Below, piece after piece: positions 15,140 through 30,053 of a stretch of DNA of 64,000 bases. The DNA is from Microbulbifer sp. YPW16. GTDB lineage: Bacteria > Pseudomonadota > Gammaproteobacteria > Pseudomonadales > Cellvibrionaceae. The position numbers were made by a program, and so were the translations under genes. The stretch spans positions 914,501 to 978,500 of the forward strand of contig NZ_CP089928.1 of the NCBI RefSeq assembly GCF_021290385.1, in the 5' to 3' direction. How positions within the stretch are numbered: the first letter of the stretch is position 1; each line of letters starts with the position of its first letter. Below the pieces are notes generated by a model. The model did no database searches. It was not told the origin of the DNA and saw nothing but the letters and a program-made list of their open reading frames with translations.

Positions 15140-18100
15140 TTACCGCTCAACATAGTCGAGTACCACACGGTCGCGCCCCAGCAGCTCGCGCAGGGACTGG
15201 ACCATCTGGTCGTTCGGCTCCACTTTCCATTCCGGCGGCAGCTGGAATGTCCCGCGGGCATCACTGCGCTCCACTTCCATTAGCACCCCACAGCTACCGC
15301 CCACGTAGGGCCGCAGGCAGGCGGACAGGCGCTGGGCCAGCCCCGCCGGCGCACTGGCGCTGTCCAGCTTGAGACGCACGCCGGTCACACTGCCCTGGCG
15401 CAGCTCGTCCAGGGTTGCCACACCGTTGACGGTCATTTTCAGGCCACCACTGTAATCGTCGTGGGCCACTGGGCCGTCCAGCACCAGCAGGGAATCCTTG
15501 GCCAGTTTCTCGCGATGCTCGCCGAAAGCCTCGCTGAACACCGCCGCCTCGATACGGGCGCTGCGGTCGTCCAGGGTGACAATAGCCATGGAATCACCGC
15601 GCTTGGTCTTCATGACCCGCAACGCCACCACCAGTCCCGCCACTTTCTGCGACTCGCGGCCCGGCTTCAGGTCCGCAATTCGGGACTTCACCAGGTGCTG
15701 GAGTTCGTCCTCATACTCGTCAATCGGGTGCCCTGTCAGGTACAGGCCGAGCGTATTCTTTTCCCCCTCGAGGCGCTCGCGGATTCCCCAGGGCCGGGCG
15801 CGGCGGAATTCCGCGTAGACATCGCCCTCGGCGGCAGTGGGAACCACCTCGCCAAACAGGTCCATCATCCCTGCACTGTTGTTGCGCGACTGCTGCTCGG
15901 CCGCCTTCACCGCCTCATCCACGGCACTGAACAGCACCGCGCGAGCATAGTTGAGGCCATCGCTGCCCTCGCCGCCCGGCCCGATACTATCCAGGGCACC
16001 GGAGCGCACCAGCGCCTCCAGGGCGCGCTTGTTGACCTTGCGCGGGTCAATACGGGAACAGAAATCGAACAGGTCGGTGAAGGGTCCGCCCTCGGTGCGC
16101 ACGGCGATAATATTCTCGATCGGGCCTTCACCCAGCCCCTTGATGGCACCCAGGCCGTAGACAATGCGGTTGTCCATATCCACCGAGAACTGGTAGGCAC
16201 CCAGGTTTACATCCGGTGGCACCATCTCCAGGCCCATGGCCCGGCACTCCTCGATAAATGTCACTACCTTGTCGGTCTTGTCCATATCCGAGGACATGGT
16301 GGCGGCCATGAACTGGGCCGGGTAGTGGGCCTTGAGCCAGGCGGTCTGGTAAGACACCAGTGCGTAGGCAGCGGAGTGCGACTTGTTGAAGCCGTACCCG
16401 GCGAACTTCTCCACCAGGTCAAAGATTTTCATCGCCAGGTCCGGGTCGACACCCTGCTCTTTCGCGCCGGCGGCAAAGATCTCCCGCTGCTTCGCCATCT
16501 CCTCGGGTTTTTTCTTACCCATGGCGCGGCGCAGCATGTCGGCACCGCCCAGGGTGTAACCCGCCAGTTCCTGGGCGATTTGCATTACCTGCTCCTGGTA
16601 GACGATCACCCCGTAGGTGGGCTCCAGGATCGGCTTGAGCTTCTCATGCTGGTACTTGGCGTCCGGGTAGGCCACCTGGGCGCGGCCGTGCTTCCGGTTG
16701 ATGAAGTCATCCACCATGCCCGACTGCAGCGGTCCCGGGCGGAACAGGGCCACCAGGGCGATCATGTCCTCGAGGTTATCCGGCTGCAGGCGCTTGATCA
16801 GGTCCTTCATGCCGCGGGATTCCAGCTGGAATACCGCGGTGGTCTCGGCCCGCTTGATCATCTTGTAGGTTTCGGCGTCGTCCAGCGGCAGTGCCTCGAT
16901 GACCAGCGGCTCCCTGCCCTCGCGGGCACGCTGTTCGTCGACCATATCCTTGGCCCAGTCGATGATCGTCAGGGTGCGCAGGCCGAGGAAGTCGAACTTC
17001 ACCAGGCCCGCATCCTCCACATCGTTCTTGTCGAACTGGGTCACCAGGCCGGCGCCGGTCTCGTCGCAGTAGAGCGGCGCAAAATCGGTCAGTTTGGTAG
17101 GGGCTATCACCACACCACCGGCGTGCTTGCCCACGTTCCGGGCCACGCCCTCCAGCTGCAGGGCCATCTCCCAGATTTCCTGGCCCTCCTCGTCGCCATC
17201 GAGGAACTCGCGCAGGATCTCCTCCTGCTCGAAGGCCTTCTCCAGGGTCATGCCCGGGTCCGGGGGAATCATCTTGGAAAGCTTGTCCGCCAGGCCATAA
17301 GACTTGCCCTGGACACGGGCCACGTCCCGCACCACCGCCTTCGCGGCCATGGTGCCGAAAGTAATGATCTGGCTCACCGCATCGCGGCCGTAGTTGTCGG
17401 CCACATAGCCGATCACGCGGTCGCGCTTCTCCATGCAAAAGTCGACGTCGAAGTCGGGCATGGAAACCCGTTCCGGGTTGAGGAATCGCTCGAACAGCAG
17501 GTCGTACTGCAGCGGGTCCAGGTCGGTAATCTTGAGGGCGTAGGCCACCAGCGAGCCGGCACCGGAACCCCGCCCCGGCCCCACCGGGATATCGTGGTCC
17601 TTGGCCCACTGGATAAAGTCCATCACGATCAGGAAGTAACCCGGGAAGCCCATCTGGATAATGATGTCCAGTTCGAACCGCAGCCGGTTTTCATAGGCGG
17701 TGCGGCGCTCGGCATAGTCCGGGGCCGACTGGTCGAGGATGGTTTCCAGTCGCACGTCCAACCCCTCGAAGGAGATCTTCTCGAAGAACTGGTTCTCGGT
17801 CATACCCTCGGGAATCGGGTACTCCGGCAGGAAATACTTACCCAGCTGGATCGGTGCCGAACAGCGCCGGGCGATCTCCACGGTGTTCTGCAATGCCTCG
17901 GGGATATCGCTGAACAGCTCCTGCATTTCCTCCGCGGTGCGGAAATACTGCTCCGGGGAATAGCGGCGCTCACGGCGCGGGTCGTCCAGGGCACGGCCGT
18001 CGTGAATGCACACCCGCACCTCATGGGCCTCGAACTCACTTTCCTCGAGGAAACGTACATCATTGGTGGCCACCACCGGCAGTTGCAACCGCTGGGCCAG

Positions 18101-18655
18101 GCCCACTGCCGCATGCAGGTAATCCTCATCTCCCGGGCGGCCGGTGCGTTGCAGTTCCAGGTAATAACGGCCGGGGAAAACCCCTGCCCATTGCCGGGCC
18201 AGGTCCTCAGCCTGGGCGGTGCGGCCGGCAACCAGTGCACGGCCCACATCCCCGTACCGGGCACCGGACAATGCCAGCACTCCCTCGGCGTACTCGGGCA
18301 GCCACTCGCGACGGATATAGGCGTTGCCGTGGTATTGGCCCTCCATCCAGGCGCGGGAGATCAGCTCGGTGATATTCAGGTAGCCCCGTGTGTTCATCGC
18401 GAACAGCGAGATCAGTGTCGGCTGCTCCTCACCGCCCTCACTGAGCCAGAAATCCGCACCGGTTATGGGCTTGATCCCGGCGCCCAGGCAGGCCTTGTAG
18501 AACTTGATCTGGCCGTAGAAATTGGTCTGGTCCGTGAGCGCCACGGCCGGCATCTCCAGCTCTGCGGCGCGGGCCACGAGCGGCTTGATCCGCACCAGGC
18601 CGTCGATCAGCGAGTATTCAGAGTGGACTCGTAAGTGAACAAAGGGTTGGGTCAT
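15140..18655 (-). CDS. dnaE: DNA polymerase III subunit alpha
   Basis: The replicative polymerase subunit, 1171 residues. The N-terminal PHP domain begins FVHLRVHSEYSLIDGLVRI. The palm carries PGRGSGAGSLVAYAL and the catalytic acidic motif VSMPDFDVDFCMEKRDRV. The GYGFNKSHSAAYALVSYQTA motif and a C-terminal OB fold (VAGLVVALRVMKTKRGDSMA) follow. Full length with no frameshift. The opposite strand stays open across nearly the whole gene, a codon-bias shadow. The gene is followed by accA, as in Escherichia coli. Confidence 0.98.
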   Translation of the reverse strand: MTQPFVHLRVHSEYSLIDGLVRIKPLVARAAELEMPAVALTDQTNFYGQIKFYKACLGAGIKPITGADFWLSEGGEEQPTLISLFAMNTRGYLNITELISRAWMEGQYHGNAYIRREWLPEYAEGVLALSGARYGDVGRALVAGRTAQAEDLARQWAGVFPGRYYLELQRTGRPGDEDYLHAAVGLAQRLQLPVVATNDVRFLEESEFEAHEVRVCIHDGRALDDPRRERRYSPEQYFRTAEEMQELFSDIPEALQNTVEIARRCSAPIQLGKYFLPEYPIPEGMTENQFFEKISFEGLDVRLETILDQSAPDYAERRTAYENRLRFELDIIIQMGFPGYFLIVMDFIQWAKDHDIPVGPGRGSGAGSLVAYALKITDLDPLQYDLLFERFLNPERVSMPDFDVDFCMEKRDRVIGYVADNYGRDAVSQIITFGTMAAKAVVRDVARVQGKSYGLADKLSKMIPPDPGMTLEKAFEQEEILREFLDGDEEGQEIWEMALQLEGVARNVGKHAGGVVIAPTKLTDFAPLYCDETGAGLVTQFDKNDVEDAGLVKFDFLGLRTLTIIDWAKDMVDEQRAREGREPLVIEALPLDDAETYKMIKRAETTAVFQLESRGMKDLIKRLQPDNLEDMIALVALFRPGPLQSGMVDDFINRKHGRAQVAYPDAKYQHEKLKPILEPTYGVIVYQEQVMQIAQELAGYTLGGADMLRRAMGKKKPEEMAKQREIFAAGAKEQGVDPDLAMKIFDLVEKFAGYGFNKSHSAAYALVSYQTAWLKAHYPAQFMAATMSSDMDKTDKVVTFIEECRAMGLEMVPPDVNLGAYQFSVDMDNRIVYGLGAIKGLGEGPIENIIAVRTEGGPFTDLFDFCSRIDPRKVNKRALEALVRSGALDSIGPGGEGSDGLNYARAVLFSAVDEAVKAAEQQSRNNSAGMMDLFGEVVPTAAEGDVYAEFRRARPWGIRERLEGEKNTLGLYLTGHPIDEYEDELQHLVKSRIADLKPGRESQKVAGLVVALRVMKTKRGDSMAIVTLDDRSARIEAAVFSEAFGEHREKLAKDSLLVLDGPVAHDDYSGGLKMTVNGVATLDELRQGSVTGVRLKLDSASAPAGLAQRLSACLRPYVGGSCGVLMEVERSDARGTFQLPPEWKVEPNDQMVQSLRELLGRDRVVLDYVER

Positions 18656-22081: not shown

Positions 22082-24628
22082 ATGTTCCGTTTACGGGCTT
22101 TGGTTGTCCTGGTTGCGCTCGTCCTGTCCGGCTGCATATTCGATTCGGACGACGACAACGGCCGCCCGCGCAATAATGATGCCGATGGCGATGGCATCAT
22201 CGACCTGCAGGACAACTGCCCCGCAACCCCCAACCCCGACCAGGCCGACTTCAATGGCGATGGTGACGGCGACGCCTGTGGTCCCCCGCCATCAGCCAGT
22301 CCACCGACAACACCGGAACCCGCACCGCCACAGGACACCGACAACGACTCGGTTCAGGACGATGCCGATAACTGCCCGGATACCCACAACCCCAGCCAGG
22401 CCGACCAGGATCGAGACGGCATCGGCGACTCCTGCGATCGTGACCTCGATGGCGACGGGGTCAATAACGACGTCGACAATTGCCCACTGAACCCCAACCG
22501 CGAGCCCGCCAGTATTCCCGATATTGTGCAGCTGGACCTGGACGAGGATGGTATCGGCGATGTGTGCGACAACGATCGCGACGGCGACGGTTTTACCAAC
22601 GCCCTCGACAACTGCCCTGACAACACCAACGACCTACAGGGAGACAGCGATGGCGACGGCATCGGCGACCCCTGTGATGAGGAAGTCGACTCGGACCTGG
22701 ACGGGGTCCCGGATCCGCTGGATAACTGCCCCGATCGTCCCAACGAATTCCAGGCCGACCTGGATGGTGACGGCTTCGGCAATCCCTGTGACAACGATGA
22801 CGACGGCGATGGGATCCGCGACAGCAGCGACAATTGTCCCCTGCGCGCCAATACAGACCAGTCCGACCGCGATGGTGACGGCCTGGGGGATCGCTGTGAT
22901 CTGGATGATGACGGCGACAGCATCGATGATATCGACGATAACTGCCCGGTTCAGGCAAACGCCGACCAGGCCGACCTCGACAATGACCTGGTGGGCGACA
23001 CCTGCGACCGCGACCGGGATGGCGACAGTGTGGCCAACGACAATGACAACTGCCCGGGCCTTGCCAACCCCGACCAGGCCGACAGTAATGCAGACGGCGT
23101 TGGTGACCTCTGTGGCGCTTCTCCTCCCGGCGACGGTCCCGATCTCTGCCCCGGTAGCGACCTCGCCAATCCGCCGGACCCGGACAGGGACGGTTTCGGC
23201 AACAGCTGCGACCCGGATGACGACAATGACACCTTTCCCGACAGCGATGACAACTGTCCGCTGGTGATCAACCCCGACCAGCGCGACACGGACGCTGATG
23301 GCCTTGGCGACGCCTGCGACAGGGATGACGACAGCGATGGCCGGGAGGACGGCAACGACAACTGCCCCCTTCTTGCCAATAACAGCCAGGCAGACGATGA
23401 CGGCGATGGTCGCGGCAATCCCTGCGACCCCACGCCGCAGGGCCTGGACCGGGATGAGGATGGCATCGCAGACAGTGAGGACAACTGTCCCGACACAACC
23501 AATCCCGGCCAGGAAGACAGCGACCGGGACGGCATTGGCAATGCCTGTGCAGCACCGACCCCGGACCGCGATGATGACACGGTGCTGGATTCAGAGGACA
23601 ACTGCCCCGATATCCCGAACCCGCAACAGGAAGATGACGACAACGACGGGATCGGGGATGCCTGCGAGGAAGTCCGGCCGGATGCGGACCGCGACGGTAT
23701 CCGCGACGACCGCGACAACTGCCCGGACATCGCCAATGGAGCGCAGTCCGATATCGACCTGGACGGCCGTGGGGATGCCTGCGATAACGACCTTGATAGC
23801 GATGGGGTTGCCAACGGCACCGACAACTGCCCGTTTACCGCCAACGCGGACCAGCTCGACGATGACGACGACGGCGACGGCAACCTCTGCGAAACCGACC
23901 GGGACGGGGACGGCATTCCGGATTCGGCGGACAATTGCCCGGACATTCCCAATGCCGACGGCGCCGACCGCGACAATGACGGCATCGGTGACCTATGCGA
24001 TGCCGACCTCGACGGCGATGGCGTGGGGAATACCTCCGATAACTGCCCGCTCCAGGCCAATACCGGGCAGGAAGATATTGATGATGATGGCCTGGGGGAC
24101 GTATGCGACACCAATGAACCGGTCTCCTGTGGCGACCGGGATGGGTTCAGGGCGCTCTCCGGTTTCGATACCGACTTCACCGTGGGTTCAGGTCCCGACT
24201 GCCCCCTGTGCCCGGTATTCACCCCGGAAAACGTTCCCGATGATTTCTTTGCCAATGCCGGGCGCCTGGCGGTACCCATAGACTCGGCGGGCAGCGCTTT
24301 TATCCGGATAGTGGATACCAATGAGGCGTATACGGGACCTTTCAGGGCCGGCTTTATCCTCGAGTCCGCCACCCTGCACCTTGATCGCATAATCCTCGAA
24401 GGCCTCACCCTGCGGACATTACTCGACGGGGTGGACACCGGCGAGCGTGCTCACGGCCGGGAGCTGCTGGTGTTCAGGCTACAGGGTGAGTCCGGTTTTC
24501 GCCGCCTGGTAACATTCAAAACCGACGCGGATTTCGATGCTGTCGAGGTTCGACTCGACGGCCTGCCATATTCTGTAAACCAATTAGACATTTACCTGCC
24601 GTGCCTGGCCCCAGTCCCACCTCCATGA
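22082..24628 (+). CDS. thrombospondin type 3 repeat lipoprotein (first paralogue)
   Basis: An 848-residue secreted lipoprotein. The signal peptide ends VALVLSGC (Cys18), and the next residue Ile suggests outer-membrane sorting. Residues about 31-680 hold roughly 17 thrombospondin type 3 repeats of about 36 residues (consensus DNCP.x.ANPDQADxDGDG, then IGDxCD). Each repeat is rich in Asp positioned to bind calcium and has two cysteines. Repeat 3 carries an insertion and the ninth is degenerate (DLCPGSDL). Residues 683-848 form a non-repetitive domain with CxxC and a final Cys, also found in the downstream paralogue at 25078. Likely a rigid, calcium-stiffened surface stalk; binding partner unknown. 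The repeat-rich DNA also keeps long false frames open on both strands. Confidence 0.88.
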   Translation: MFRLRALVVLVALVLSGCIFDSDDDNGRPRNNDADGDGIIDLQDNCPATPNPDQADFNGDGDGDACGPPPSASPPTTPEPAPPQDTDNDSVQDDADNCPDTHNPSQADQDRDGIGDSCDRDLDGDGVNNDVDNCPLNPNREPASIPDIVQLDLDEDGIGDVCDNDRDGDGFTNALDNCPDNTNDLQGDSDGDGIGDPCDEEVDSDLDGVPDPLDNCPDRPNEFQADLDGDGFGNPCDNDDDGDGIRDSSDNCPLRANTDQSDRDGDGLGDRCDLDDDGDSIDDIDDNCPVQANADQADLDNDLVGDTCDRDRDGDSVANDNDNCPGLANPDQADSNADGVGDLCGASPPGDGPDLCPGSDLANPPDPDRDGFGNSCDPDDDNDTFPDSDDNCPLVINPDQRDTDADGLGDACDRDDDSDGREDGNDNCPLLANNSQADDDGDGRGNPCDPTPQGLDRDEDGIADSEDNCPDTTNPGQEDSDRDGIGNACAAPTPDRDDDTVLDSEDNCPDIPNPQQEDDDNDGIGDACEEVRPDADRDGIRDDRDNCPDIANGAQSDIDLDGRGDACDNDLDSDGVANGTDNCPFTANADQLDDDDDGDGNLCETDRDGDGIPDSADNCPDIPNADGADRDNDGIGDLCDADLDGDGVGNTSDNCPLQANTGQEDIDDDGLGDVCDTNEPVSCGDRDGFRALSGFDTDFTVGSGPDCPLCPVFTPENVPDDFFANAGRLAVPIDSAGSAFIRIVDTNEAYTGPFRAGFILESATLHLDRIILEGLTLRTLLDGVDTGERAHGRELLVFRLQGESGFRRLVTFKTDADFDAVEVRLDGLPYSVNQLDIYLPCLAPVPPP

Positions 24629-25077
24629 CCGCAGGCGGATTGCTGTGCTATGCCCGCCTGGCCACAGGATCGAACACTGACCTGTCGCGAAACCGGCACA
24701 GCACTGAACGCCGCCCCGGCAACCGAACCGGCAGAGAAGTCAGGCGGCCAAACGAGGGGGCCAACCTGAAAGGCAGTTAACAACAAATAGTCATATCGCC
24801 AGGTTCAACACTCGTTAGCTTTGACGCCAACATATAGACACAATTCACACTTTAGATTAGAAAGCCATCACGCAATAAAGAAAAATTTTCTATAGGCAAA
24901 GGAAAGCCGCCGGGATCCAGATCCACCCGGCGGCGTGCCAGGGGCGACAGGGAAGTTGCTGTTCAGGCTGAAGTCACCAACCGTGCAGGGACGCCGGTTT
25001 GTGTGGTCCCGACCATTGCATCTACGCCAGATTCCCGCCCCGGGCAGACAACAAAAACCTGCTCCGGAGAAACCCGC
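24629..25077. other. 449-base gap between the two TSP3 genes
   Basis: No gene seen. About 24780-24905 is markedly A+T rich against the GC-rich surroundings and is the likely promoter region of the second TSP3 gene. It is followed by a stable hairpin (24906-24934) and a leader of about 140 bases. The nonamer CAGGGAAGT occurs both here (about 24948) and in the leader of the first TSP3 gene (about 22038), which may or may not be meaningful. Confidence 0.5.
24906..24934. promoter_or_regulatory. hairpin in the leader of the second TSP3 gene
   Basis: Arms GCCGCCGGG (24906-24914) and CCCGGCGGC (24926-24934) enclose an 11-base loop. There is no T-run on the plus strand, so termination of the upstream gene is doubtful. 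It may be a leader structure or a weak minus-strand terminator. No riboswitch class could be matched. Confidence 0.3.
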
Positions 25078-28000
25078 ATGATGCGCTTCCCGATCTTTCT
25101 TCTCTTTGCATCGCTCACCCTTCTCTACGCCTGCACAGCGGATGAGAGCGGTCGCAGGGAGACAACCACCTTCAACAGCGCCTCCGCGGCCCCGCTGGAC
25201 ACCGATGGCGACGGCATCACGGACCAGGATGACAATTGTCCGGACATGGCTAATCCCGGCCAGGGCGATGCCGACGGCGATGGCAGCGGCGACGCCTGTG
25301 ACAGCGATCGGGATGGAGATGGTATAAACAACAGTGCCGATAACTGCCCTTCGACCGCCAATCCAGACCAGGCCGATGGTGACAGCGACGGTACCGGTGA
25401 TGCCTGCGACAACGATATCGACGGCGATACCGTCGGGAACAGTGCCGACAACTGCCCGCTGGTTGCGAACAGTGATCAGGATGACCTCGATGGCGATGGT
25501 ACCGGCGACAGCTGTGACAATGACACCGATGGTGATGAGGTCACCGACAGCCTGGATAACTGCCCCATGGCAGCAAATCCGGGCCAGGAGGACCAGGACA
25601 ACGACGGCATTGGCGATGCCTGTGATGCCGACAGTGATTCTGATGATGACGGCCTCGACGACGGCGCGGATAACTGCCCGGCCGTGGCCAACCCGGAGCA
25701 GGACGACACCGATGGCGACGGTACTGGTGATGCCTGTGACGAGGACGATGATGGCGACAGCGTCGACGATGGATCAGACAACTGCCCGGCCACGGCCAAC
25801 GAGGACCAGGCAGACCTGGACGGGGACGGCATTGGCGACGCCTGCGACAACGACCGCGATGGCGACAATACCCCCACCGCGCAGGACAACTGCCCTGATA
25901 CACCCAATCCCGGGCAGGAGGACACGGATAATGACTCCATTGGTGATGCCTGTGATGACTTCACCGACAGCGATGGTGATGGCATCGCCGAGGACAGCGA
26001 CAACTGCCCCGCCACCGCCAATCGCGATCAGGCCGATGCTGACGGCGACGGCACCGGTGATGCCTGCGACAGCGATACCGATGGCGACGGCACCGAGAAC
26101 AGCAGCGATAACTGCCCCCTGATTGCCAATGCAGACCAGCAGGACACAGATGGTGACGGCAACGGAGATGCCTGTGACGAAGACAGTGACAACGACGGTG
26201 TCGATGATGTGAACGATAACTGTCCGCTCAATGCCAATGCCGAGCAGACCGATGCGGACGGCGACGGAATCGGCGACAGCTGTGATGATGATGTCGACGG
26301 GGACAATGTCGACAATGACGCTGATAATTGCCCCTCTGTTGCCAACGAGGACCAACAGGACACCGATGGAGACGGGTTCGGTGATGCCTGCGACGACAAT
26401 ACCGACAGCGATTCAGATGGCGTACCTGACGAAGCCGATAACTGTCCCGAGGATGCCAATGCCGACCAGCAGGACCAGGACGACGATGGTATCGGTGATG
26501 CCTGTGATACCGACCGCGATGGCGACGGCGATGAAAATACCGGCGATAACTGCCCGGCGGTTGCCAATCCCTCACAGGCCGATACCGACAATGATGGTAT
26601 CGGCGATGCCTGTGACAGTGACGACGACAACGACTCGATCGCCGATGAGGACGACAATTGCCCCTATATTCCCAATTCCGACCAGGCCAATCGCGACGGC
26701 GACCAGTACGGCGATGCCTGTGACAGCGATGAGGACGGTGATGGGGTCGGTGATGACGTGGATAACTGTCCCGCACTCGCCAACGAAGAGCAGTTGAATA
26801 CCGACGGCGACGCGCAGGGCGATGCCTGTGACAGCGACGATGACAATGACGGTATCGAGGATGACACCGACAACTGTCCGCTGGTTGCCAATACAGAGCA
26901 GTCGGACCTGGACGGCGATGGCACCGGCGATGCCTGCGACGATGATCGCGATGGCGATGGCCTCCCCGACGACCGCGATAACTGCCCCGGTGAGGCAAAC
27001 CTCGACCAGGCTGACCAGGACGGCGACGGCATCGGCGACGCATGCGATGCGGACAGTGATACCGATAATGACGGCCTGGATGACGGCGAGGACAACTGCC
27101 CGGCGGAGCCCAATGCCGGCCAGGACGACCTCGATGGCGACGGTGTCGGCGATGCCTGCGACGCCGATGTCGATGGCGACGGCTTCACTAACGATGAGGA
27201 CAACTGCCCCATGACCGCCAATGACCAGGCGGATGCCGATGGGGACGGCCTCGGTGACGTCTGTGACGAAGACCTGGATGGCGATTCCGTCAACGACAGT
27301 GAAGACAATTGCCCGGTCGACTACAACCCGGACCAGTCGGACCAGGACGGTGACGGCCCGGGCGATGCCTGCGACCTGGACCGCGACGGCGACGGCGTGG
27401 ACAACGGGGACGACAATTGCCCGGCAGTGTCCAACCCGAACCAGCTCGACGCGGATGGCGATGGTATCGGGGATGCCTGTGACCCCGATGTGGACAACGA
27501 CGGGGTGGCCAACGAGGAGGACAATTGCCCGCAGACTGCCAACCCAGAGCAGGACGATTTCGACAATGATGGTATCGGCGATGCCTGCGACAACGGCCTT
27601 GCGGCCACCTGTGAGTCAGTCGGCGACTTCCAGCCGATTACCACCAGTGATTCCAAGCTGGCCCACGGCATTGTCACTCCCTGCCTGGAATGCTCGGTTA
27701 CCAGCCCTGGCCGGGTCACCAACGATGTGATCACCGATGCCGCGCGGATCGAGGTATCGGCTGGGGCCGGTGGCGGTGCCTATATCGATGTGACCAAGAC
27801 CACGGTGCTGTCCGGCAGGCATCGCATAGGCTTCCTGGTGGAGAAGCCTGCCTCTCTCCTGGACCTGGTGCTGCTGGAAACCGTACGCATCAGCACCATG
27901 CTTGGCGGCCAGCCCACCGGTGACAGCGGCACAGGCAGCTCTCTGGTGGTCTTCGATGTGGACGGTGCCGTGAACCAGCGCGTGATCACTATCAACTCGG

Positions 28001-28101
28001 TACAGCCTTTCGACCGGGTACGGCTGAGCCTTGGCAGCCTGCCCACCGAAGTGAACCAGCTGGATGTGTACATGGCTTGCCTGGCCCCGATCAACCGCTG
28101 A
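25078..28101 (+). CDS. thrombospondin type 3 repeat lipoprotein (second paralogue)
   Basis: A 1007-residue secreted lipoprotein with signal peptide ending LTLLYAC. Residues about 40-840 hold about 22 thrombospondin type 3 repeats, more regular than in the first paralogue, with period mostly 36 residues (108 bases), sometimes 38. Typical units read [20 protein letters not shown] then DACD. Residues 845-1007 form the shared C-terminal module: a Cys, then CLEC exactly 24 residues later as in the upstream paralogue's CPLC, and an ending [14 protein letters not shown] matching SVNQLDIYLPCLAP. The ATG pair at 25078/25081 has CGGAGA upstream; a GTG at 25003 would precede the signal peptide. Probably a long calcium-dependent surface rod made by duplication and repeat expansion. 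Confidence 0.88.
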
Positions 28102-28355: not shown

Positions 28356-30053
28356 TTACTTCAGTCCCAGCACTTCCTTACCCTGGATAAAGGTGACGTC
28401 CACCGGGATATCCGCATCAGACAGGCGATCCAGGTCGGCCTGCAGCTCGGCGCCAACGACGCCCTTGCTGTCCAGCAGCTCCTTCGATTTCTCGTAGTCA
28501 CCGTCACCCTGGATGGTCAGGATCAGGTTGGACAGGCTGGTCATGGCTTCCTGCATCTTGTCGAAGTCCACACTGTACTGCCCGGTTTCCGGATCGCGGG
28601 TAAATGCGCCCTGCTCCTTGAAGTAATTGAAACGCATCATGTTGGCCTTGCCGTGGGCACTGGCGGCACCGAAGCGCACGCTGCGGAAGATACTGGCCAG
28701 GAAGGTGACGTAATTGTCCATCAGTTCCCCTTCCTCGATCTCGCCCTTCTCGTGCAGGCGCGTCACCATGTAGAGGCCAAGGATATCCGCCTTGCCCTCT
28801 TCCAGCGCCGACGAGGTTTCCTTCAGCGCCTGGCGCACATTGCTACCATCGGTCACGGTTTTCTTGATCCCCAGTCCATGTGCCACCTCGTGGAACATGG
28901 TATTGGAGAAGAAAGCCGGGAAAGTGATGTGCTGGCGCTGGTCCTCGGCGATCAGTACTTCACTGATGGGTACCAGGATCTTGTCGAACTTGGCGCGCAT
29001 GGCGTTTTTCAACTGCAGGCGGCGGGTGCCCTTGGCCAGCTGGACCTCTTCATCATTGGGCAGGTTGATGGCGATGGTCTTGGAACCCGCATTGCTGTGG
29101 CCGGCGTAAAAGACTACATCGTAGGCGTTCAGGTCGGAATCGGTGCCCGGCACCTCGGACTTGTACTTGTCATCCACCGGCAGGCCCTTTTGCAACTCGG
29201 GCAGGAAGGCGGCGAACTTGGCCAGCTTCTCACTCCACTCCATGTCCTTCAGCAGGACGTAGGACTCGTACGCGGTGCGGTAGGCGAACAACTGGTCCTC
29301 GTAGTTCTCGATCGGGCCGATCACCACGTCGATTTCATTGTCCTTCATGTCCATCCAGGCCATATCGCTGGGACGGAAATCGTCAGACAGCAGCGCGTCG
29401 GCGCGCATGCTCAGGTAATTGGCAAACTGCTCGTCCTCGGCCAGCTCGGACGCCTGGCGCAGGATTTCCGCAGCCTTCTCCAGGTCACTCTTGTAGGCCT
29501 CGCTGTAAGGCACCAGCTTCAGGTTGCCATCCTGGTCGCGGCGTACCAGGGAGTAGAGGCCATCCTTACCCGGCTGCTGCCACTGCTCGAACTCCTTCTT
29601 GGTCATGTCTTCCGGATAGAACTCGGCACCGGGCGGCTTGGGGCCGTAGCCATCGATGAATGGCTCGTTGTTGTTGAGCCGGTCCCAGGGACCGTAGTTG
29701 ATCCGTGCAAACTCGCGCTTGGCGCTGTCCTCGATGCCCGGTAGCAACTCTTCTGCGGGACCAAATGACTGCAGCCAGAAGAGACGATCCATGATCTGGC
29801 TGGCATCGATCAGCAGGCCGATCATCTGCCGCTGGTCGTCCGAGAGGTCGGACAGGTCCGCGTTCAGCTCAACCGGAACATAGATATCAAAGCGGCCATT
29901 GGCTTCGGCAGCTTCCTGCTCGGAGGGCTCCGCCTGGGTCTGTTCGACCGCAGTACCGGTCTCCTCGATTACCTCGGTCTGCTCCCCGCGGGGGGAGCAG
30001 GCGCTCATGACAGCCAGCGCCAGTAGCGCGGTGGCAAATTTTGCAGTCTTCAT
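28356..30053 (-). CDS. M49-like zinc dipeptidyl peptidase lipoprotein
   Basis: A 565-residue lipoprotein with signal peptide ending AVMSACSP and an acidic, Glu/Gln-rich spacer. It resembles the dipeptidyl peptidase III (M49) family: a zinc site HEVAHGLG (His388, Glu389, His392) and a downstream EEGKADILGLY supplying the third ligand. Most M49 enzymes have a six-residue HExxGH site; here it is the five-residue HExxH form. Other M49-like features are FYAGHSNAGSKTIAINLPND and RFGAASAHGKANMMRFNYF. It probably trims peptides in the periplasm or at the outer membrane. The ATG has AGAGG upstream. Peptidase activity is inferred. Confidence 0.82.
   Translation of the reverse strand: MKTAKFATALLALAVMSACSPRGEQTEVIEETGTAVEQTQAEPSEQEAAEANGRFDIYVPVELNADLSDLSDDQRQMIGLLIDASQIMDRLFWLQSFGPAEELLPGIEDSAKREFARINYGPWDRLNNNEPFIDGYGPKPPGAEFYPEDMTKKEFEQWQQPGKDGLYSLVRRDQDGNLKLVPYSEAYKSDLEKAAEILRQASELAEDEQFANYLSMRADALLSDDFRPSDMAWMDMKDNEIDVVIGPIENYEDQLFAYRTAYESYVLLKDMEWSEKLAKFAAFLPELQKGLPVDDKYKSEVPGTDSDLNAYDVVFYAGHSNAGSKTIAINLPNDEEVQLAKGTRRLQLKNAMRAKFDKILVPISEVLIAEDQRQHITFPAFFSNTMFHEVAHGLGIKKTVTDGSNVRQALKETSSALEEGKADILGLYMVTRLHEKGEIEEGELMDNYVTFLASIFRSVRFGAASAHGKANMMRFNYFKEQGAFTRDPETGQYSVDFDKMQEAMTSLSNLILTIQGDGDYEKSKELLDSKGVVGAELQADLDRLSDADIPVDVTFIQGKEVLGLK

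Follow-up and report, generated by a model that had tools for sequence, protein, structure and literature searches.

Two adjacent Microbulbifer lipoproteins with long thrombospondin type 3 arrays and a common C-terminal domain, candidate calcium-stabilised adhesins

We examined a 64,000-nucleotide stretch of the genome of Microbulbifer sp. YPW16 (NZ_CP089928.1, positions 914,501 to 978,500), hereafter the window, in which two adjacent genes (window positions 22082 to 28101) encode lipoproteins built mainly of thrombospondin type 3 (TSP3) repeats. Both begin with a lipobox, continue as a TSP3 array and end in a common domain, which we call the head; this order of parts is kept in relatives across the genus and the family, and the proteins are under purifying selection. 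We give about an even chance to the interpretation that both are Ca2+-stabilised, lipid-anchored stalks presenting an adhesive head.

Architecture of the two lipoproteins

The two genes are intact open reading frames (ORFs) on the + strand of the window, and the adjoining genes on either side lie on the - strand. Their parts, with lengths in amino acids (aa), are the following.

22082..24628, +: gene 1, lipoprotein with 17 TSP3 units and a C-terminal head, 848 aa
22082..22135, +: signal peptide and lipobox of gene 1 (MFRLRALVVLVALVLSGC/IFDS), from the sequence and the lipobox pattern
22211..24109, +: TSP3 array of gene 1, from the first DNCP to the last GDVCD
24110..24625, +: head domain of gene 1, 172 aa
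24629..25077, strand not applicable: spacer, 449 bp
25078..28101, +: gene 2, lipoprotein with 22 TSP3 units and a C-terminal head, 1007 aa from the ATG
25078..25134, +: signal peptide and lipobox of gene 2 (LLYAC/TADE), from the sequence and the lipobox pattern
25231..27591, +: TSP3 array of gene 2, from the first DNCP to the last GDACD
27592..28098, +: head domain of gene 2, 169 aa
28107..28139, +: terminator-like hairpin directly 3' of gene 2, 13 pairs and a T-rich tail, assigned by position

The lipoboxes, LSGC/I in gene 1 and LYAC/T in gene 2, both match the strict pattern; the mechanical ORF of gene 2 starts upstream of the ATG, at GTG 25003. The cysteines, 39 in gene 1 and 49 in gene 2, are fully accounted for by two per unit, one in the lipobox and four in the head. 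Acidic residues greatly outnumber basic ones (232 versus 44 in gene 1, 303 versus 23 in gene 2).

Unit numbers were counted from DNCP/DLCP starts. The Pfam family TSP_3 (PF02412, gathering score 25 bits) matches 16 stretches of gene 1 (E 5.5e-134, 436 bits) and 22 of gene 2 (E 6e-213, 688.6 bits), and phmmer aligns the repeats with the COMP and thrombospondin-2 chains of the PDB at E 1e-51 to 2e-56. Units are spaced by 36 aa in 16 of 21 intervals of gene 2 (range 35-38) and in 9 of 16 of gene 1 (range 32-52). Every unit (17/17 and 22/22) has its two cysteines and the acidic C-type motif; 14 of the 17 units of gene 1 and 21 of the 22 of gene 2 also keep the looser N-type motif. By these sequence comparisons the TSP3 assignment is beyond doubt, and membership of the TSP3 family leads us to infer that the arrays bind Ca2+. 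The genome, a single contig of 4,194,587 bases, contains 39 TSP3 matches, 38 of them within the two genes; the sole other one is a short stretch near the end of a 290-aa outer-membrane beta-barrel protein (L090:5393-6265, - strand).

In the predicted model of the last eight units of gene 2 with the head, the units are almost devoid of regular secondary structure, block means of confidence lie at 82-94 over roughly the first 260 residues, and the top three Foldseek matches are two entries of thrombospondin-2 and one of COMP (E 4e-24 to 2e-23). The local pattern of this model thus agrees with thrombospondin; its overall shape does not, or is not fixed by the prediction. Since the predicted template modelling score (pTM) is 0.43 and the global TM-scores of these matches are low, the overall shape of stalk and head is not established.

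A preliminary description of this DNA had reported two adjacent TSP3 lipoproteins of 848 and 1007 residues with 17 and 22 units of the thrombospondin type. The ORFs, counts and lipoboxes bear this out, as do Pfam, phmmer and Foldseek for the repeat type (the last with TM-scores of only 0.13-0.16), and the structure prediction that it had proposed upheld the units without settling the shape of the whole. It had also taken the proteins to consist almost wholly of repeats; in fact the arrays take up 633 of the 848 residues of gene 1 and 787 of the 1007 of gene 2, and a separate common domain that it overlooked makes up the C-terminal 172 and 169 residues. Nor are the units of gene 1 decayed, as it had supposed: all 17 keep both cysteines and the C-type motif, variation being confined to their spacing and to the N-type motif.

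Over about 165 aa the two heads share 33% identity (54/164, E 6e-30). Neither matches a family of Pfam, NCBIfam or PHROGs, and a sequence search of the PDB returned nothing for the head query P0004 and nothing credible for the head profile A1 (best E 0.31). When 23 heads are aligned, 11 columns prove invariant, a CxxC pair among them. AlphaFold2 predicts an almost all-beta domain (predicted local distance difference test, pLDDT, 85.6; pTM 0.85). A Foldseek search of the PDB gave 1310 matches, of which the best 50 were listed; the best E-value is 1.6e-4, 11 matches have E 0.001 or better, and TM-scores reach at most 0.53 among the 50. Recurrent among these 50 are the carbohydrate-binding modules (CBM) CBM11, CBM61, CBM29 and CBM32, phage tail fibres and tailspikes, and the adhesin domains of Epf and gingipain; the matches listed from a viral structure library likewise include tail fibres and a tailspike. 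The head would thus be a beta-sandwich with a weak resemblance to CBMs, and glycan binding is possibly its role, a lead offered by the model and not a proof. The head may also resemble domains of Bacteroidota surface proteins.

A 1440-aa protein from outside the order (L101:4400-8722, - strand) carries two tandem heads followed by cadherin/Big_9 repeats, and the head is therefore a portable module.

Distribution, locus and array history

Counting the window's own genome each time, the head was found in 25 of 48 Microbulbifer genomes, in 24 of 120 genomes and 4 of 32 genera of a family sample, in 6 of 369 genomes of a class sample (three being weak partial matches) and in 4 of 398 genomes of a phylum sample (Pseudomonadota). 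The named relatives all belong to Microbulbifer (12 of 12 confirmed loci, out of 31 stretches matching a single peptide pattern), the closest being M. sediminum (94%, tblastn). All 48 Microbulbifer genomes contain some kind of TSP3 match, though often only a few weak ones, so that TSP3 alone is no marker of the head-plus-array family. Carriage by plasmids or phages was considered and rejected: the head query P0004 has no match among plasmids, and the head of L081 none among plasmids or phages.

An ORF census was made over the regions of all head matches in the genus, family, class and phylum samples together with the window. It yielded 57 ORFs with a head match, 47 of which contain at least three TSP3 units; the remaining ten are a remnant in M. 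sediminum (G011), three ORFs cut by contig ends, five head-only or partial frames and the 1440-aa protein with cadherin repeats. The strict lipobox pattern is present in 38 of the 47, both window genes included, and the other nine comprise six with a near-lipobox by eye, one with a signal peptide lacking the cysteine, one cut by a contig end and one without a signal.

The proteins combining head and TSP3 array are mostly found at one locus, which is missing in other species. Both flanks are present in 15 of 20 occupied Microbulbifer regions, with ogt (usually accompanied by Ada/AlkA) and dnaE on one side and an M49 peptidase gene on the other; the M49 gene is 2.8-7.3 kb away in five of these 15 and reversed in one of the five. 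One flank or neither lies within the stretch in the other five regions. The M49 gene itself occurs in one copy in each of the 48 Microbulbifer genomes. Stretches were fetched from 14 of the 23 genomes lacking the head. In six of them the M49 and Ada/AlkA matches lie about 70-300 bp apart, a gap into which the gene cannot fit; four have 1.3-6.2 kb of other DNA at the site and four have the second flank beyond the stretch. No head, and no frame carrying two DNCP motifs, occurs in any of the 14 stretches.

Complete mechanical ORFs with array and head at this locus in Microbulbifer measure 553-1624 aa and hold 7-34 units, and arrays reach 45 units in the family. Another genome (G068; L084, L085, L119) has five heads, with three lipoprotein genes of 33, 15 and 7 units in a row and two heads elsewhere. 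Two genes at the locus were found in the window and in G030. The gene 1 heads of these two genomes cluster together (support 100/98), separate from the gene 2 heads; both sit on long branches that drew a warning from the tool, which leaves the depth of the split unsure. In M. sediminum the gene 2 head is 94% identical to that of the window, and a frame between gene 2 and Ada/AlkA (L044:11748-11951, - strand) corresponds to roughly the final two fifths of a head (E 6e-5). From this remnant in the sequence, M. sediminum is judged to have lost nearly the whole of gene 1.

Array length changes between species by in-frame blocks. Units 1-8 and 15-22 of the window's gene 2 pair with units 1-8 and 9-16 of the M. 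sediminum ortholog, leaving window units 9-14 unpaired. The ortholog in G035 (22 units) pairs in order with 21 units of gene 2, including all six of units 9-14, and that in G012 (22 units) with 20, including five of them; because these two keep counterparts, units 9-14 were most simply lost in M. sediminum. As a control, the units of gene 2 were shuffled 300 times and scored against each ortholog. No shuffle reached the observed order score for nine of ten orthologs, and one did for G065; likewise, none of 300 reached it for gene 1 against its G030 ortholog. The arrays of gene 1 and gene 2 share no common unit order (272 of 300 shuffles reach the score). In more distant species the matched units have similarities of about 0.65-0.80, which exceed the background (about 0.60) only slightly, and many units remain unmatched.

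Within the 13 arrays compared, the DNA similarity of unit pairs never exceeds 0.81, and identical residues in the 27 units compared from both window genes use the same codon at a frequency of 0.549, with 0.526 expected from codon usage. These two results and the conserved unit order among orthologs indicate that the units are old. Recent tandem amplification was rejected, Tandem Repeats Finder reporting only partial arrays (108 bp, 1.8-2.8 copies, in gene 2; 33 bp, 1.9 copies, in gene 1). Units of gene 2 that lie 13 apart (3/16, 4/17) are slightly more alike (mean 0.647 versus 0.616, p 0.0155, one of 17 lags and uncorrected), possibly reflecting at most an old block duplication. Repeated unequal recombination, which the preliminary description had invoked, therefore fails as a recent process, and what stands of it is the variation of array length by in-frame blocks. 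The genes are intact in relatives.

Purifying selection acts on both stalk and head, and more strongly on the head. Against M. sediminum, the head with the last unit (193 codons) has a nonsynonymous divergence (dN) of 0.041-0.045 and a synonymous divergence (dS) of 0.76-1.68, and the stalk (545 matched codons) a dN of 0.10-0.12 and a dS of 0.58-0.97; the ranges come from two methods, and the higher dS values are close to saturation.

Around the two genes, no promoter was found above chance, and the window contains no Rfam family or tRNA. Terminator-like sites number two in the region, against 3.9 expected from shuffles, and what speaks for the hairpin after gene 2 is its position. The end of the spacer and the start of gene 2 (24810-25091) share 71% identity with the equivalent part of the M. 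sediminum locus. Inspection by eye showed an inverted repeat of 9 bp, rich in G+C, in the spacer (24906-24934; arms 24906-24914 and 24926-24934). The convergent neighbour (28356-30053, - strand) belongs to the Peptidase_M49 family (PF03571, E 1.7e-15), and its start, MSAC, resembles a lipobox. On the other side, a 1057-aa ORF (15461-18634, + strand) antisense to dnaE (15140-18655, - strand) is probably a by-product of high G+C.

Proposed function and alternatives

In the proposed mechanism, the lipidated N-terminal cysteine would anchor each protein in the outer membrane, the 17 or 22 TSP3 units would take up Ca2+ and serve as a stabilised stalk, and the conserved beta-sandwich head would sit at the free C-terminus. 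By analogy, a lipid-anchored stalk tipped by a conserved domain would be the anatomy of an adhesin. The outer membrane is favoured by the E. coli rule on the residue after the lipidated cysteine, this residue being Asp in few of the strict-lipobox ORFs (2 of 38). Export to the surface is likewise inferred. The genome encodes a GspD secretin (531.6 bits, cut-off 351.35), and type II secretion is known to export a surface lipoprotein, PulA (PMC7857515). A search for Slam (PF04575) gave no match, and the controls gave none either.

Several observations weigh against this interpretation. A lipobox says nothing about which face of the membrane is used. The structural matches of the head are weak (E 1.6e-4 at best, TM-scores of at most 0.53, identity 8-14%), and those listed also include a complex I assembly intermediate, FlaA1, EphA7 and a Cry endotoxin, which are not known for sugar binding, so that the fold by itself names no function. 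The model of eight units and head has the low pTM given above, and its thrombospondin and COMP matches have global TM-scores of only 0.13-0.16. Finally, the head is absent from 23 of 48 Microbulbifer genomes, and the function is therefore dispensable in the genus.

The question of membrane face opens the door to lipoproteins that look into the periplasm and span or brace the envelope, in the manner of the TSP3 linkers of OmpA-type proteins. Default Lol sorting would leave a lipoprotein facing inward, which counts for such an arrangement. The Lol route is covered in PMC7857515, and a preprint describes TSP3 repeats joining the barrel and the OmpA-like domain of TraB (PMC12045341). The Microbulbifer proteins, however, have no peptidoglycan-binding domain, Pfam finding TSP_3 only, and arrays of up to 45 units seem long for the periplasm; we hold this arrangement to be quite unlikely. 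Somewhat less so, if still unlikely, is cell-cell cohesion as reported for MtsC of Myxococcus (PMC11980579), in which heads would keep sister cells together by binding to one another or to the matrix, without attachment to a substrate. The two proteins score 487.9 and 811.6 bits with the NCBIfam MtsC model NF047638 (cut-off 350), yet the best stretches cover profile positions 107-265 and 86-266 of 428, within the repeats, and the heads taken by themselves have no match among the NCBIfam models. Tried on three further array-plus-head proteins, the model accepts two (822 and 1433 bits) and fails the one with three units (98 bits); its score thus tracks the number of TSP3 repeats. The MYXO-CTERM tail is lacking too.

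The preliminary description had left the choice between a surface stalk and a calcium sink. Acidic arrays that sequester or buffer surface Ca2+, the head being merely a cap, would suit the acidic excess and the C-type motif of every unit. A pure sink, on the other hand, needs no head that is kept better than its stalk (11 invariant columns over 23 sequences), and unit number differs several-fold among relatives, so that we regard a sink as improbable; the constant head favours the surface stalk.

Going further than the stalk-and-head interpretation, these proteins may, as a tentative proposal, form a new adhesin family in which the layout of the thrombospondin signature domain was rebuilt from bacterial components, namely a lipid anchor, a stalk of TSP3 units and a glycan-binding head that is unclassified. 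Unit number (7-34 in Microbulbifer at this locus, as many as 45 in the family) would set the reach of the head, and a presence/absence locus would make species differ in what they grip and how far away. Our literature searches returned no paper title on this lipoprotein family. In the published cases cited here, bacterial TSP3 repeats are short linkers or a few modules of an enzyme (PMC12045341, PMC2386152). The occurrence of long TSP3 stalks that share a constant, unclassified head in a genus and more widely in its family offers a tractable system for the attachment of marine bacteria, in which Ca2+, stalk length and head specificity can be related to the control of attachment. The head also supplies a domain family missing from Pfam, and the NCBIfam MtsC model proves passable by repeats alone.

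Comparison with known systems

TSP3 repeats in Gram-negative envelope proteins are also known from the OmpA/TraB type, and the OmpA family structure PDB 5wtl is matched at E 1.6e-6. There, the repeats are short linkers inside barrel or OmpA proteins, whereas here they form long arrays on lipoproteins. Giant adhesins of the RTX or cadherin type likewise combine a Ca2+-stabilised repeat stalk with ligand-binding domains, and one relative joins the head to cadherin repeats; their repeats have a different fold, and they use type I secretion instead of a lipobox. The laminarinase Lam16A of Saccharophagus degradans, another marine bacterium, is described as a secreted enzyme with four TSP3 modules besides GH16 and CBM6 (PMC2386152), neither of which Pfam finds in the Microbulbifer proteins.

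In the signature domain of thrombospondin and COMP (PDB 1yo8, 2rhp, 3fby), a TSP3 wire is likewise followed by a C-terminal beta-sandwich. The thrombospondin C-terminal domain that follows the repeats is not found here, since Pfam detects only TSP_3 in both proteins and nothing in the heads; the heads match no thrombospondin by sequence, none figures among the 50 structural matches listed for the head alone, and the lipid anchor is a feature of the Microbulbifer proteins. MtsC is also a TSP3-rich exported protein, whose model accepts both window proteins. Membership was nevertheless rejected: the match is confined to the repeats, the C-termini (one being YLPCLAPVPPP) have neither helix nor Arg tail, and the NCBIfam models listed for both proteins and for the heads include no MYXO-CTERM one. 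With an N-terminal lipobox in place of that tail and a head of their own, these proteins would be misrepresented by an automatic MtsC label. We conclude that the Microbulbifer proteins would work like thrombospondin or MtsC of Myxococcus without being members of either.

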